A stretch of 64,000 bases of DNA from an uncultured Clostridia bacterium (GTDB lineage: Bacteria > Bacillota > Clostridia > Christensenellales > Borkfalkiaceae), in assembly GCA_947627065.1 (NCBI GenBank), contig CANQUN010000002.1, positions 1-64,000 on the forward strand. The letters run 5' to 3'. The notes under the pieces are model-generated. The model worked only from the letters and a program-made list of their open reading frames with translations, ran no database searches and had not been told where the DNA came from. Position 1 is the first letter of the stretch. Every line of letters starts with the position of its first letter. Made by a program: the position numbers and the translations under genes. This document shows, in pieces, positions 5,519 through 45,779 of this stretch.

Positions 5519-8500
5519 ATGAAAAAAGGCAGATTGTTGACCTTTTTGGCGCTCGCACTGTGTGCGGCCGTGTCTCTGTTCCTCTACGGATGCGGAGACA
5601 TTCTCACCGAACACGTGCATGAGTACACCGAGTGGGTCATAACAACCACCCCCACCCAGGAAACGGGCGGCGAAGCCACGCACAAATGCCCGGCTTGCCT
5701 CAACGAGGAAACGGTGGAAATACCCGCCCTGTCGGATTCGGACGTCTGGTCCGTCAAGTCCGAACAGCCGGCCACTCACGATGCCGACGGCACGAGAGTA
5801 TACACTTCCGAATACGGCGATGTAGAAATCGTTCTGCCCCTCGTACCCGACCACGTTTACGGCGAATGGACGATAACCGACGAGCCTACCGAAGACGCAA
5901 GCGGCTCCGCCGAGCGTGAATGCTCCGTCTGCGGCGACGTGGAAACGGCAACCGTTCCCACCCTGTCCGACGGTTCGGTCTGGACCGTGGAAGAAGTTCC
6001 CGCCGACCACCACAACGCAGGCAGCAAGACCTACACTTCCGAATACGGCCAAGTTGTAGTAGAACTGCCCGTCGTTCCCCACAGTTACGGCGCGTGGACT
6101 ATAACCGACGAGCCTACCGAGGACGAAACGGGCACCGCTTACCGCGAATGCGAATGCGGCGACAGAGAGGATGCGGAAGTTCCCGCCCTGTCCGACGCCG
6201 ACACGTGGACTATGGAAGAAGTTCCCGCCGACCATCACAATACAGGCAGCAGGACTTACACTTCCGAATACGGCGAGGTTGTAGTAGAACTGCCCGTCGT
6301 TCCCCACAACTACGGCGCGTGGGTCATGACCGACGAGCCTACCGAGGACGAAACGGGCGCCGCTTACCGTGAATGCGAATGCGGCGACAGAGAGGATGCG
6401 GAAGTTCCCGCCCTGTCCGACGCCGAAACGTGGACTGTGGACGAAGTTCCCGCCGACTACAACACCGCAGGCCACAAGACCTACACTTCCGAATACGGCG
6501 AGATTACCACCGCCACCCCCAAACTCGTTGCGCCTTACGACAACAAGACTTATTACAGTTTTGCCGTTCAGGCCAACGATTCCGGATACAGAAACAGGTC
6601 GCTCCGCATCGGCGACTCGTGGACGGGCCAGTTCATCGTCCTCGATGAAAACGGCGTGGGTATCGGCTACGGCATGCCCTTCAACAACAAGGACAAACAC
6701 ACTTTTGCCATAATCGACCCCGCCACGGGCGAAGCGCAGCTCACCACCATTGACCTCGCGGGCGACCAACTCAAAGACGAGGACGGCACCCCGCTGGTAG
6801 ACGCTTTTGACAGGCCGCTGTACGACCTCAACAACACCAGCGGTTCGCCCACCGTGCGCCGCGTTTACGTTGACTTTGAAACGGGCTTTATGGTTCTTGC
6901 CAACAACGGCAACGACCTCAGTTACGTTCACGTTCTCACGCCTTACGGCAAGTACGACAGAGAAAGTCCCGCACTCGCTTCGGCTTGGGGTAACGACCTC
7001 GAATACGCCATTGCCATAACCTACCCCTACGGCGACGGCCTGACCGAAAGCATATTCATCACCGACGGCAGGGCTTACTTCGGCGTAACCTTCGAGGATA
7101 TCGACGGACAGCCCGTAGCGGCCGACAAATGCTACAACAACTCTTACGTTTACGTCAAGAAGAACGGCGTAACCCTGTTCGCTTACGGCTACGGCGAAGG
7201 AGCCATGCATAAGTTGGACGGCAACGAGGGCACCTACACTCTCGGAGAGGACACCCTCACCGTTTCGGGTTACGGCACTCTCGAATACAAGGGCAACTCC
7301 GGTACTTACACGGTAGAGGGCGACATAATTGCCGCCACCGTTACCGAGGACGGCAAGGAAGTTTATTACGAATTCACCCTTGAAGGCGACACCTACACCG
7401 TTGACAAACCCATGGTGGAAATCACCTTCAACCTCGGCGGCCACGGCGCGCTTGCCGACGACGTGGTTACCGTAAACAAAAACGCCGCTTACGACCTGCC
7501 CGTGCCCGACGAAGACCCCGCTTTCATCTTCCGCGGCTGGTTCCTTGACGAGTCGTTCGACACGCCTGTGGACGAAGTGTTCCGCCCGTCGGGCAGCGTT
7601 ACGCTCTACGCCAAATGGCTGGCCAAGGTAACCATAATCGTACACGTTGCCGAAGGCGACACGCGCACCCTCTACCTTGCCGACGGCGAAATGCTCTCCG
7701 TCGTGCTCGAAGGCCTCATCGAAAAGGCCGTAGACGAGGACAAGGGCGTTTACTTCGTCGGTTGGTATTCCGACGAGGGCTACGAAACCGAAGTTCCCGA
7801 CAACGCGCAGGTTTCCACCGAGGACGACGGCTTTGAAATTTACGCCAAGTGGGAGGCTCTGCCCGACTATTACGGCGATTACGTCGGTTGGAATTTGGAC
7901 GGCGCAAGTAATACGAGTAGTTCGAAGTACACAGCGTCCATAGACATTTACGGCAACATAACTTCCGGCAGGTACAACATTGACGGAGCCAAAGTCAGCC
8001 ACTACGACCCCGCTACGGGAATCATAACCGCTAACAAAGGTAGCTCTCAGCCGTATCTTTACCTTGACCCCGAATACGACATTATGGCAACCGCTTATAA
8101 CACCAACAGATATCTCGGCAGCGACATAATATTCATGGCCAAATACGAGATGGATCCTGTTAAGAATATCGGCATAAGGGTAGCCAGCAAGAACCCGAGC
8201 AGTGGTACTTCTCAGGGCTATTACGTAAGAATCGTCCTCGCCAAGGATAAGGAGGGCAACGACCTTCTCGTGTTCATCTACGACGATGAGATTCACGGCG
8301 GCGTTACCATTCAAGACGCCCTTGGCAAAACCCTTGAGTTCGATGCCATCCAGAACTCCAAGACCCTCATCGTAAAACTCGGAGACAAGATTCTGTTCTC
8401 CGTCAGCGCGGTTGACGCCACCCTTAAGGGCAGCGACACCGTTCCGCTTGACAGTTGGTACGGCACCTACACGGGCGAAGGCGGCAACGCCGTTGTCGAC

Positions 8501-15139: not shown

Positions 15140-15850
15140 AATAACCATCCACCCGCGTAGCGGGTGGTTTTGCATTTTCGGGCATAGCCCTAATCTTTAC
15201 AGGCGGCGCACAAGTGCGCTTTGTGTTGACCTGCCAGTCATGCATTTGTTACTTGCTACCCGTAAACGGGTCTCTCGGGTCAAAGATACTTATTTGATCC
15301 GCTTCTTTATCTTGTTTCAGTTGGTTTGCAATGTACTCTTTTATTGCGGCTGTGTTCTTCCCTACCGTGTCTACGTAGTACCCTTTGCACCAAAACTCGC
15401 GGTTGCGGTATGCATATTTCATGTTCCCCCATTTTTGAAATATCATCAGGCTACTCTTCCCTTTCAGATATCCCATGAACCCCGCAACGCTCATTTTGGG
15501 CGGGATGCTCACCAGCATGTGGATGTGGTCGAGACATATCTCTCCTTCAACCAACTCTACGCCTTTCCATTGGCACAGCGTCCTCAATATCTCCCGTATT
15601 TCCAAACGCTTCCCTTCGTAAAATACTTTCCTTCGGTATTTCGGCGCAAACACTATGTGATACTTGCAATTCCATTTTGTATGTGCTAAACTATTTGTGG
15701 TATTATTTTGCTCCGGCATTTTAATATCCTCCGATTGGTGTGAATTTTTCAGACTGGCAGGTCTTATTCAATTCTACACCAATCGGAGTACTTTTGTCTA
15801 CCTCATCGGCTTTAGCCTCTTTTGAACCACGCGACTATCGCGTGGTTTTC
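15140..15850 (-). mobile_element. IS200-type insertion sequence
   Basis: A single Y1 transposase gene without tnpB, bounded by small imperfect-palindrome ends as in IS200. One end has the hairpin CCACCCGC-GTA-GCGGGTGG (15149-15167); the other has AACCACGCGA-CTA-TCGCGTGGTT (15825-15847). Inside them a perfect 12-bp inverted pair flanks the gene: GACCTGCCAGTC at 15228-15239 and GACTGGCAGGTC at 15752-15763. A further 11-bp inverted pair (CCGATTGGTGT at 15731 and its complement ending at 15786) could fold over the transposase start and limit its expression, as known for IS200. Exact ends cannot be fixed because these elements make no target duplication. Confidence 0.8.
15249..15719 (-). CDS. tnpA: IS200/IS605-family Y1 transposase TnpA
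   Basis: The 156-residue protein is full length for IS200 TnpA. The HUH metal-binding motif is His65-Ile-His67 in LDHIHMLVSIPPK, and the catalytic tyrosine is one of Tyr114/Tyr115 in CKGYYVDTVGKN. N-terminal KYHIVFAPKYRRKVF is characteristic of the family. It would catalyse single-strand cut-and-paste transposition at the hairpin ends. No frameshift or truncation is visible, so the element may be active. Confidence 0.95.
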   Translation of the reverse strand: MPEQNNTTNSLAHTKWNCKYHIVFAPKYRRKVFYEGKRLEIREILRTLCQWKGVELVEGEICLDHIHMLVSIPPKMSVAGFMGYLKGKSSLMIFQKWGNMKYAYRNREFWCKGYYVDTVGKNTAAIKEYIANQLKQDKEADQISIFDPRDPFTGSK

Positions 15851-31328: not shown

Positions 31329-32117
31329 TTAAGCGATCTTGATTATATTCATCAGTGTGTCGTTGTAGGTGGGGCCTTCGCCGAGCGTGAGTTGCAGCGT
31401 AATGCCGCCCGTGCTTTGGACGACGGCGGTTTTGGACATAGAGTACGTTGCCGCCGTCTCGCCAGTCTGTCCCTGCGCGAGCGTCCCTTCCTGAGCGGTT
31501 CCGCCCACGGTAAGTTGCATGCTGGGCACGGCCGTGCCGTCCGAAACGTAGTTTGTCCCGTAGGTTACAAGGTAAGTCCCCGTGCCGAGCGTTACGGTGC
31601 CCGTGGTTTGGTCGTAAGTTATCTCCGTTTCACCGGTCGGCAGGGGAGTGTATTCGGTGAATATCGCCGTGGGGCCTGTCAGACCCGTTCCCTGCAGGGT
31701 GGCCGCGCTCAGTTGCGCCGTCCCCGCCGGGCCTTGCGGACCTGCCGGACCTTGAGGACCTTGCGGACCCGTTGCACCCGTTAAACCAACCGGTCCCTGA
31801 GGACCTGCGGGACCTTGGGGACCTTGCGGTCCTGTTGCACCCGTCAAACCAACCGGACCTTGCGGACCTGCGGGACCCTGAGGGCCTTGCGGACCCGTTG
31901 CGCCCGTCAAACCAATAGGCCCTTGCGGACCTGCGGGACCCATCGGACCCGTCGCACCTGTAAGACCCGTAGGTCCCTGCGGACCCTGCGGGCCTGTGGG
32001 ACCCTGAAGCCCCATGGGGCCTTGCGGGCCTCTCGGGCCTGTTCCGCCGGTAACGGAAACGGTTATTTCCTCTCCGCACCTGCGGCAATTTTCGAAAAAG
32101 CTGTTATTACAAGCCAT
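31329..32117 (-). CDS. Collagen-like (Gly-X-Y) protein, exosporium BclA-like
   Basis: The 262-residue product has a short Cys-containing head (NCRRCGEE), about 36 Gly-X-Y triplets (residues about 26-133, mostly [13 protein letters not shown]) and a globular beta-rich C-terminus ([12 protein letters not shown]...). This plan matches BclA-type filament proteins of spore surfaces, where the C-terminal domain trimerises. No signal peptide is seen, which suits a mother-cell-made spore coat or exosporium protein. The collagen part is encoded by near-identical 54-bp DNA repeats, prone to length change. The minus-strand ribosome site GGAGGTTAAA is good. Location on spores is inference, supported by nearby spmAB. 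Confidence 0.85.
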
Positions 32118-44388: not shown

Positions 44389-44417
44389 TTGCGTTTTTTT
44401 GCGGAGGGGAGTATAAT
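44389..44417 (+). promoter_or_regulatory. Sigma-A promoter of the riboflavin-uptake leader
   Basis: TTGCGT (44389-44394), 17-bp spacer, TATAAT (44412-44417), 7 bp before the riboswitch P1 helix. Confidence 0.8.
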
Positions 44418-44423
44418 TAAAAA

Positions 44424-44533
44424 AAATCTTTGGGGCGGGGTGCAATTCCCTACCGGCAGTTAAAGTCTGCGAGCTTCGGCCGATGCGGTGAAATTCCGCA
44501 ACCGACGGTACAGTCCGGATGGAAAAAGATTTT
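44424..44533 (+). promoter_or_regulatory. FMN riboswitch (RFN element)
   Basis: The conserved blocks are all present in order: GGGGCGGGGTGCAATTCCC, TACCGGCAGT, AGTCTGCGAGC, GATGCGGTGAAATTCCGCA, ACCGACGGTACAGTCCGGA. P1 is closed by AATCTTT and its complement AAAGATT. It binds flavin mononucleotide and should reduce expression of the downstream riboflavin importer when FMN is plentiful. Confidence 0.95.
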
Positions 44534-44548
44534 AAGACGATTCTTTCC

Positions 44549-44571
44549 GCCCCCGATATGTATTCGGGGGC
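44549..44571 (+). terminator. Probable expression-platform terminator of the FMN riboswitch
   Basis: GCCCCCGA and TCGGGGGC form an 8-bp stem with a 7-nt loop, followed by a short ATTTTCAT tract. It lies 16 bp after the aptamer, the usual place for a riboswitch-controlled terminator; the T-tract is weak. Confidence 0.6.
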
Positions 44572-44585
44572 ATTTTCATCCGGAG

Positions 44586-45039
44586 GTTCCGCCGCATATA
44601 TGCTACGCAATACGGTGTCAAACTTCGCTTGCCTCGGGTCATTTACGCAAAGTAAACTCCCCGTCGGCAACGCTCGCTTTCCTTGTCTTGCTTGCGTCTC
44701 TGCACCGGAAAGCGGGCACGGAAAAGTTCCGCCGCATATCCGCCGCGCAATACGGTGCCATCGCTTGCCTCGGGTCATTTACGCCGAGTAAACTCTCCGT
44801 CGGCAACGCTCGCTTTCCTTGTCTTGCTTGCATCTCTGCACCGGAAAACGGGCACGGAAAAGTTCCGCCGCATATATGCATCGCAATACGGTGTCAAACA
44901 TCGCTTGCCTCGGGTCATTTACGCCAAGTAAACTCCCCGTCGGCAACGTTCGTTTTCCTTGTCTTGCTTGCGTCTCTGCACCGGAAAGCGGGCACGGAAA
45001 AGTTCCGCCGCACATCTGCTACGCAATACGGTGCAAAAC
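44586..45039. repeat. Tandem 136-140 bp repeats inside the ribU leader
   Basis: Three full units begin with GTTCCGCCGCA at 44586, 44726 and 44862 (lengths 140, 136, 140), and a partial fourth runs 45002-45039. Each holds G(C/T)TCG(C/T)TTTCC, a ~24-nt loop, then GGAAA(G/A)CGGGC; the stem is kept in units 1 and 3 through G-U exchanges, with one mismatch in unit 2. Lengths are not multiples of three and frames shift, so the repeats are not coding despite open frames. The array ends in a dispersed-motif copy (45039-45060). Confidence 0.9.
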
Positions 45040-45066
45040 CCCCTAAATCTCACAAAAAGCCACTCC

Positions 45067-45120
45067 TTGGCCCTTCCCGAGGAGGGGCCGGCGAACGGAG
45101 TGAGACTGAGGTGGGCAATG
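45067..45120. repeat. REP-like palindromic element, copy 1
   Basis: TTGGCCCTTCC-CGA-GGAGGGGC starts a hairpin element that ends TGAGGTGGGCAATG. The same start and end occur at 49231-49282, with an altered middle. Intergenic; between the tandem repeats and ribU. Confidence 0.65.
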
Positions 45121-45218
45121 TAAGTAGCGCGGCGCAACACGGTGCCTCTATCACCATCGTAGCGCCGGAAAGCAGGGACAGATTTAACACCGCCAAGCCC
45201 CGAAGGAAGGAGTCAATC

Positions 45219-45779
45219 ATGTCGGTTAAAAACAAGGTTCGCTTCACAGCGTCCCGCATCGCCTTCGTGGCGATGTTCACCGCGCTTGCGTTTGCGGTTT
45301 CTTTCCTGCATTTCCCCATCTTTCCCGCCGTGCCATTTCTCGAATTGGATTTCTCAAACGTGTTCTTCATGATAGAGGGGTTCATCTTCGGTCCTGTGGA
45401 AACGCTCGTCTCCATAGCCGCCAAAGAACTGCTGTGCCTGCTCAAGACAAGCTCGGGCGGCGTGGGCGAACTTGCCAACTTCATCATGTCCGCGGCTTAC
45501 ATAATCGTGCCGTCGGTGGCGTACAGGTTCGCCAAGGGGCGCTGGGTAGTGCTGCTGTTTCTTCTAATCGGGTGCGAAGTACAGGTCGGCTCGTCCTTCC
45601 TCGTCAACCGTTACATCACGTTCCCGTTTTACGGCATAGCGGAAATGTTCATGGAAGTGTGGCCGTTCGTAATTTACTTCAACATAATAAAGAGCGTGGC
45701 GATAAGTGTCATCGTGTTCTTCGTCTATAAACCGCTGTCCCGCTTTATAAAATCGGTGTCGGCAAAATTTTCGGGCTGA
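45219..45779 (+). CDS. ribU: ECF transporter S component for riboflavin (RibU)
   Basis: The 186-residue protein has six hydrophobic helices and RibU-type motifs: RIAFVAMFTALAFAVSFLHF, FLELDFSNVFFMIEGFIFGP and KELLCLLKTSSGGVGELANF. It binds riboflavin outside and works with a shared ECF module not encoded here. The FMN riboswitch upstream fixes the substrate. Start chosen at ATG 45219, with AAGGAAGGAG 7 nt before; the frame stays open through the repeats but that is not translated sequence in any sensible way. The leader is about 690 nt long because of the inserted repeats. Confidence 0.93.
   Translation: MSVKNKVRFTASRIAFVAMFTALAFAVSFLHFPIFPAVPFLELDFSNVFFMIEGFIFGPVETLVSIAAKELLCLLKTSSGGVGELANFIMSAAYIIVPSVAYRFAKGRWVVLLFLLIGCEVQVGSSFLVNRYITFPFYGIAEMFMEVWPFVIYFNIIKSVAISVIVFFVYKPLSRFIKSVSAKFSG

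Follow-up and report, generated by a model that had tools for sequence, protein, structure and literature searches.

Integron attC sites are imperfect hairpins located directly 3' of stop codons, in the orientation of the gene. Among dispersed repeats, the ERIC (RU-1) element of enterobacteria is a 127-bp intergenic imperfect palindrome whose insertion at 3' ends can alter mRNA level, and MITEs residing within transcripts can supply RNase III or RNase E sites (reviewed in PMC10969869). In the pneumococcus, a BOX element is placed between two T-box riboswitches of the trp leader, which is enlarged by it (PMC3049150); this is a direct precedent for a repeat that lengthens a riboswitch leader.

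In this work, we analyse a 64,000-nt stretch of DNA (the window; positions 1 to 64,000 of contig CANQUN010000002.1, assembly GCA_947627065.1) from an uncultured Clostridia bacterium of the family Borkfalkiaceae, in which tandem repeats separate an FMN riboswitch from ribU. The array consists of local copies of an undescribed hairpin element of 105-160 bp, dispersed in gut Clostridia and Bacteroidota. It is this dispersed family, rather than the ribU leader, that constitutes the finding of interest, the leader being probably one accidental landing place.

The ribU leader in the window

All features of the leader are encoded on the plus strand. A putative promoter read directly from the DNA, TTGCGT-17-TATAAT (44389..44417), adjoins the riboswitch on its upstream side; its -35 box has 3 of 6 matches, which is why the sigma70-like promoter scan omits it. 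The FMN riboswitch aptamer (RF00050; 44422..44534) scores 116.8 bits (E 1.4e-26), where the cut-off is 66.2, and stands 5' of a riboflavin gene, with the array itself outside the aptamer. A scan places a terminator-like hairpin behind it, followed by the short U-tract ATTTTCATCC (44549..44571), where relatives carry the longer TTTTTT. The 3' side of the aptamer, UCCGGAUGGAAAA (44514-44526), could pair with UUUUCAUCCGGA (44573-44584), which directly follows the terminator, so that this stretch might fold in an alternative way.

The array follows at 44586-45037, with a period of 140, 3.3 copies and a score of 753 in the tandem-repeat scan of the window. Unit 1 (44586..44725; 140 bp) contains the conserved core at 44594-44700, scoring 111.2 bits with the covariance model R1; unit 2 (44726..44861; 136 bp), which has a 4-nt deletion, contains it at 44734-44836 (89.3 bits), and unit 3 (44862..45001; 140 bp) at 44870-44976 (109.6 bits). 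A partial fourth unit (45002..45039) repeats the first 38 bp at 89% identity. The units are 90-96% identical to one another and spaced by 136 and 140, in a copy number that is as assembled in a MAG of 104 contigs. Tandem-repeat scan, BLAST and aptamer search agree with the earlier note, made from the sequence alone, in placing 3.3 tandem repeats between the riboswitch terminator and ribU, and the coordinates given in the note are all correct.

Behind the array lies another dispersed repeat that is unrelated to the unit, GGCCCTTCCCGAGGAGGGGCC..GAGGTGGGCAATG (also given as GAGGAGGGGCC..GAGGTGGGCAATG; 45039..45124), with 82 matches in the genome. A sequence resembling a ribosome-binding site, AGGAAGGAG (45204..45212), stands 6 nt 5' of the ATG of ribU (45219..45779), which encodes a 186-aa substrate-binding (S) component of an ECF transporter (PF12822, E 3e-12). 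Homologues occur in 58 of 61 genomes; the name ribU is assigned from the FMN riboswitch, Pfam giving only the ECF-transporter S component. The sequence scan detected no sigma70-like promoter on the array's sense strand, and one could still exist there. The frame in phase with ribU stays open from 44430 to 45779 (449 codons), through the riboswitch and all repeats, and is probably fortuitous upstream of ribU; a coding role was rejected, as Pfam gave no match for the 263 codons that precede ribU. Further tandem repeats are found in the window at 5801-6501 and 31727-32007, one with a 225-bp period (3.1 copies) and one with a 63-bp period rich in GGACCTTG/CCTGCGG, which may encode a collagen-like repeat on the minus strand.

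From the end of the aptamer to the ATG at 45219 the leader measures 684 nt, compared with about 100 nt for the two closest riboswitch-ribU leaders. The repeats do lengthen it, as had been proposed. The FMN riboswitch is present at all 20 ribU loci scanned (the window's own and those of 19 relatives). The repeat unit is absent from the riboswitch-ribU loci of all 19 relatives, and from 10 further ribU loci as well.

The core fold is kept by compensatory change

BLAST with the unit gave 11 matches in the window's own genome, including five other contigs of the MAG, and weaker ones in relatives, while model R1 gave 10 in the own genome. The genes next to the copies include those for ferritin, an FtsX-like permease, queA and a U32 peptidase; upstream genes were checked at seven copies, and six of the seven belong to a Pfam family. 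A covariance search in related genomes, which the earlier note had suggested, showed that 89 of 121 genomes in the window's family carry the element, covering 16 of 18 genera with up to at least 32 copies; of 245 genomes sampled from the class, 18 have it. A scan with the core sequence reached Clostridia MAGs including Candidatus Coproplasma, Bacteroidales, Saprospiraceae, Prolixibacteraceae, a Chlorobiota MAG and Staphylococcus pragensis; the scan preselects 22 bases and inflates the scores at those loci, and the whole-genome searches are unbiased for additional copies. One Saprospiraceae genome holds 111 matches. The E-values of the model are rough, and the weakest cross-phylum matches (e.g., Rickettsiales) may be due to chance.

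No Rfam family matches the element at the gathering score, whether the window's unit or copies from other genomes are used, and literature searches outside subscription papers gave no description of the core sequence or of dispersed stop-codon hairpins. Phages and viral contigs contain no match to the unit, and a phage origin was rejected on that ground.

To examine the fold, 33 copies were aligned with MAFFT without structural information (alignment A1) and folded by RNAalifold. The result is one long hairpin with a core of about 108 nt and two conserved internal loops, in which 19 of 23 pairs show compensatory changes altering both sides. Paired cells amount to 92.9% (71.7% in shuffled alignments and 30-44% with slid partners) and double-change cells to 147 (44 and 10-28, respectively), the slid-partner control being somewhat biased in favour of the structure, which came from A1 itself. 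Aligned and folded separately, 26 Bacteroidota copies gave an equal architecture, with double changes at 15 of 24 pairs. The core fold of the element is thus kept by compensatory change. In unit 1, the apical part of this hairpin occupies 44629..44670 (TTGCC..GGG.TCA.TTTAC-loop-GTAAA.CTC.CCC..GGCAA), corresponding to the covarying helices 4-6 of A1.

These results bear on the earlier note in different ways. Its alternative of a unit occurring nowhere else, with a randomly decaying stem, is the opposite of what is seen, the unit being dispersed and its core hairpin covarying strongly. Its view that readthrough RNA would bear a regular chain of hairpins is supported; in copies elsewhere, the core fold persists by compensatory change. 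The 11-bp stem that it singled out (44672-44682 with 44707-44717 in unit 1; 44672..44717) can be found in the sequence: all its pairs form in unit 1 and, with the help of G-U pairs, in unit 3, while unit 2 has one C-A mismatch. It is not the conserved structure, however: it draws on the 3' flank, common to close subfamily copies only, and in eight close copies it covaries no more than in shuffles.

Two kinds of variant were seen. Four copies in one Prolixibacteraceae genome (G147; L341, L342, L343 and L344) carry a TCCCGATTTTATCGGGA palindrome in place of the apical TTTAC/GTAAA stem, and a related palindrome stands in for part of their 3' loop. A short variant at L362 (431-516 and 704-789) retains the basal loop and lacks the apical GUCA-UUUAC module.

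Placement, flanking arms and mobility

For the placement count, genes were called with a codon-scored ORF finder written for the purpose, so the calls are approximate, and the loci are not independent, as orthologous sites (e.g., queA) recur. First copies are sense to the preceding gene in 126 of 146 cases, with 110 in tandem-sense, 16 in convergent-sense, 10 in divergent and 10 in tandem-antisense contexts. A sense stop codon lies at most 25 nt away in 89 of them and the mirror arrangement occurs in none, while random placement would bring 6% close to a sense stop if gaps are weighted by length, and 22% if all gaps count equally. The element therefore strongly favours gene 3' ends in the sense orientation. 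Runs of T follow the core at 60 of 183 loci, compared with 18 in shuffled sequences. Sec/Pyl recoding was rejected, each of the three stop codons preceding the element somewhere. Unlike most copies, the window's array has no stop codon before it; some copies elsewhere also stand behind terminators.

In the rRNA operons of two Clostridia (L358, 1589-1694 and 4751-4856; L359; L360), antisense copies precede the 23S and the 5S rRNA genes by about 10 nt, and in Bacteroidales they stand equally about 10 nt upstream of tRNA genes (L130, 537-641; L151, 1423-1529 and 1682-1786).

The core stem extends outward into arms that vary by locus and nevertheless pair. Arms with at least 8 uninterrupted pairs occur at 72 of 183 loci, compared with 1.75% when arms from different loci are combined. 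For queA, compared across ten species, the stop codon and the codons just before it make up the 5' arm, with which the 3' arm alters in step, as in TGCCTCTTTTTATAAGC/GCTTCTAAAAAGAGGC compared with ATGATGATCGTATAAGC/GCTTCTCCGATCCTCAT, with imperfect pairing in some species. The placement at stop codons, together with arms that co-vary with the last codons, suggests that a hairpin at the message's 3' end is under selection. Recent copies in two genomes (G140 and G147) have arms that are constant within the genome, and some of these copies stand behind terminators, distant from stops.

Signs of mobility were clearest in G147, where 156-bp copies, mostly 95-99% identical, occupy unrelated sites. 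They start with TAGTGT and finish mostly with (T/C)ACTA, giving inverted ends (TAGTGT...ACACTA/TACTA). The flanking dinucleotides match in 14 of 14 copies (0-2 at other offsets), and the base A 5' of the element also matches in 14 of 14, so the duplication measures 2 or 3 bp depending on how the end is defined. The features that define a MITE can accordingly be recognised: short, non-coding, dispersed and near-identical copies in G147; terminal inverted repeats, in the form of the G147 ends and of pairing arms in other genomes; and a 2-bp target site duplication in all 14 copies, from one Bacteroidota genome only and not from the window's family. Partial-end matches in the draft genomes G147 and G156 were followed, and neither a transposase between or beside them nor a parent insertion sequence with the ends of the element was found. 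With the genomes being drafts, and with many recognised MITEs having no known parent, the missing parent was not counted as a failed defining feature. Mobilisation of the IS200/RAYT type was rejected, as Y1_Tnp is missing from many high-copy genomes and does not correlate with copy number. The window has one IS200-type (Y1) transposase gene at 15321-15677, with an equal-scoring second copy on another contig (299-655).

One species (L139) carries the element at an operon site where another (L203) has an orthologous short gap without it. The element has thus been gained or lost between related genomes, and the change between L139 and L203 may have gone either way. Insertion into a pre-existing terminator was rejected, the empty L203 site having no hairpin.

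Origin of the array and comparison with known systems

In our view, the array is likely to be a dispersed MITE-like hairpin element, non-coding and made of the core of about 108 nt and its pairing arms, that was amplified locally in tandem. One copy would have landed directly behind the riboswitch terminator, a spot resembling the 3' end of a transcript, and would then have been multiplied by unequal recombination or slippage. As the array stands behind a terminator and copies elsewhere do so too, the simplest account is that a copy landed behind a transcript's 3' end and was then amplified. It has to accommodate several observations that fit it less well, namely the failure to find a transposase or a longer element with matching ends, the lack of IS200-type transposases in many high-copy genomes, target duplications that come from a single Bacteroidota genome with none for the window's family, the antisense copies by rRNA and tRNA genes, and an array that does not follow a stop codon. 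On a view close to that of the earlier note, the array evolved as a component of the ribU riboswitch and tunes ribU; its position between terminator and gene and the core fold kept in all three units lend this some appeal. With the unit missing from the relatives' ribU loci and standing behind unrelated genes, and with a second, unrelated repeat occupying the same leader, such a role is very improbable, and the note's interpretation is partly supported as a whole. Least credible of all is an assembly artefact in the tandem copy number: the MAG is fragmented into 104 contigs and the units are near-identical, but they differ by 4-10% and in length, and many other assemblies hold tandem arrays of the hairpin element at many loci. 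If amplification of a landed copy is accepted, readthrough RNA formed when ribU is on (low FMN) would bear three strong hairpins ahead of the ribU ribosome-binding site. The units would most likely act on ribU as an RNA processing or stability site, like other MITEs within transcripts, quantitatively and without creating a new switch; our best guess is a modest change in how stable the readthrough RNA is or how it is processed.

What the element is in general can be read in more than one way. It is quite conceivable that it is a parasite at the DNA level only (MITE or REP-like), with the fold and arms serving as a transposase substrate or arising by self-templated cruciform repair, and with its position reflecting tolerance at gene 3' ends. 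The inverted ends with 2-bp duplications, the tandem arrays at many loci and the presence or absence at an orthologous site speak for this, and the copies antisense to rRNA and tRNA genes keep it open; tolerance, however, leaves the 110:10 ratio of sense to antisense copies in tandem gene pairs unexplained, no mobilising enzyme was found, and arms altering in step with queA codons exceed passive decay. A somewhat less probable reading is that of a mainly cis-acting mRNA 3'-end stem-loop under selection, with mobility secondary. It would fold onto the stop codon, where it would shield the message, direct its processing or link translation termination to decay. Sense orientation, stop-codon adjacency, arms that co-vary with the codons of queA orthologues, compensatory changes with G-U intermediates and the T-runs 3' of the core are in its favour, while the antisense copies at rRNA and tRNA genes fit poorly with a purely sense 3'-end RNA role, and the recent G140 and G147 copies have genome-constant arms and lie partly behind terminators, off stop codons. 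Rather doubtful, finally, is a combination of both, in which an undescribed RNA-structured family of Clostridia, Bacteroidota and Staphylococcus would spread like a MITE and be kept as a stop-codon hairpin, its 5' arm being the coding end, its 3' arm re-adapting and its internal loops binding a common factor that acts on message 3' ends.

Gut Clostridia and some Bacteroidota commonly carry the element, which is apparently unannotated, and its family makes it possible to test directly whether mRNA 3'-end signals are recruited from mobile hairpins; the ribU locus, for its part, advises caution against taking local repeats for riboswitch parts. Among known systems, ERIC is similar in size, in its long imperfect hairpin and in its dispersal in transcribed intergenic regions, but it has another sequence and occurs in other phyla, and PMC10969869 describes for it neither strict stop-codon adjacency nor two conserved internal loops nor locus-matched arms. 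The pneumococcal BOX, RUP and SPRITE repeats (PMC3049150) are likewise dispersed, with strong predicted RNA folds; they are enriched between convergent genes, whereas the window's element lies mostly between co-directional genes, and BOX is modular and belongs to another phylum under another name. REP elements (tagged GTAG or CGTC, with dedicated Y1 transposases, the RAYTs; PMC3733652) are also high-copy extragenic palindromes with cross-phylum families, some without a known transposase. They are, in contrast, single hairpins of 20-40 bp with the GTAG/CGTC palindrome, while the present core measures about 108 nt, contains internal loops and shows no correlation with IS200-type transposases, Y1_Tnp often being missing. 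Integron attC sites share the imperfect hairpin adjacent to the stop codon in sense orientation; here no R'/R'' boxes (R' GTTRRRY) are seen by eye, and the genes are ordinary housekeeping genes in chromosomal operons. The element is therefore of a known kind, a small hairpin repeat in transcribed spacers, and is unusual in its cross-phylum internal loops, its strict sense placement at stop codons and its locus-matched arms.
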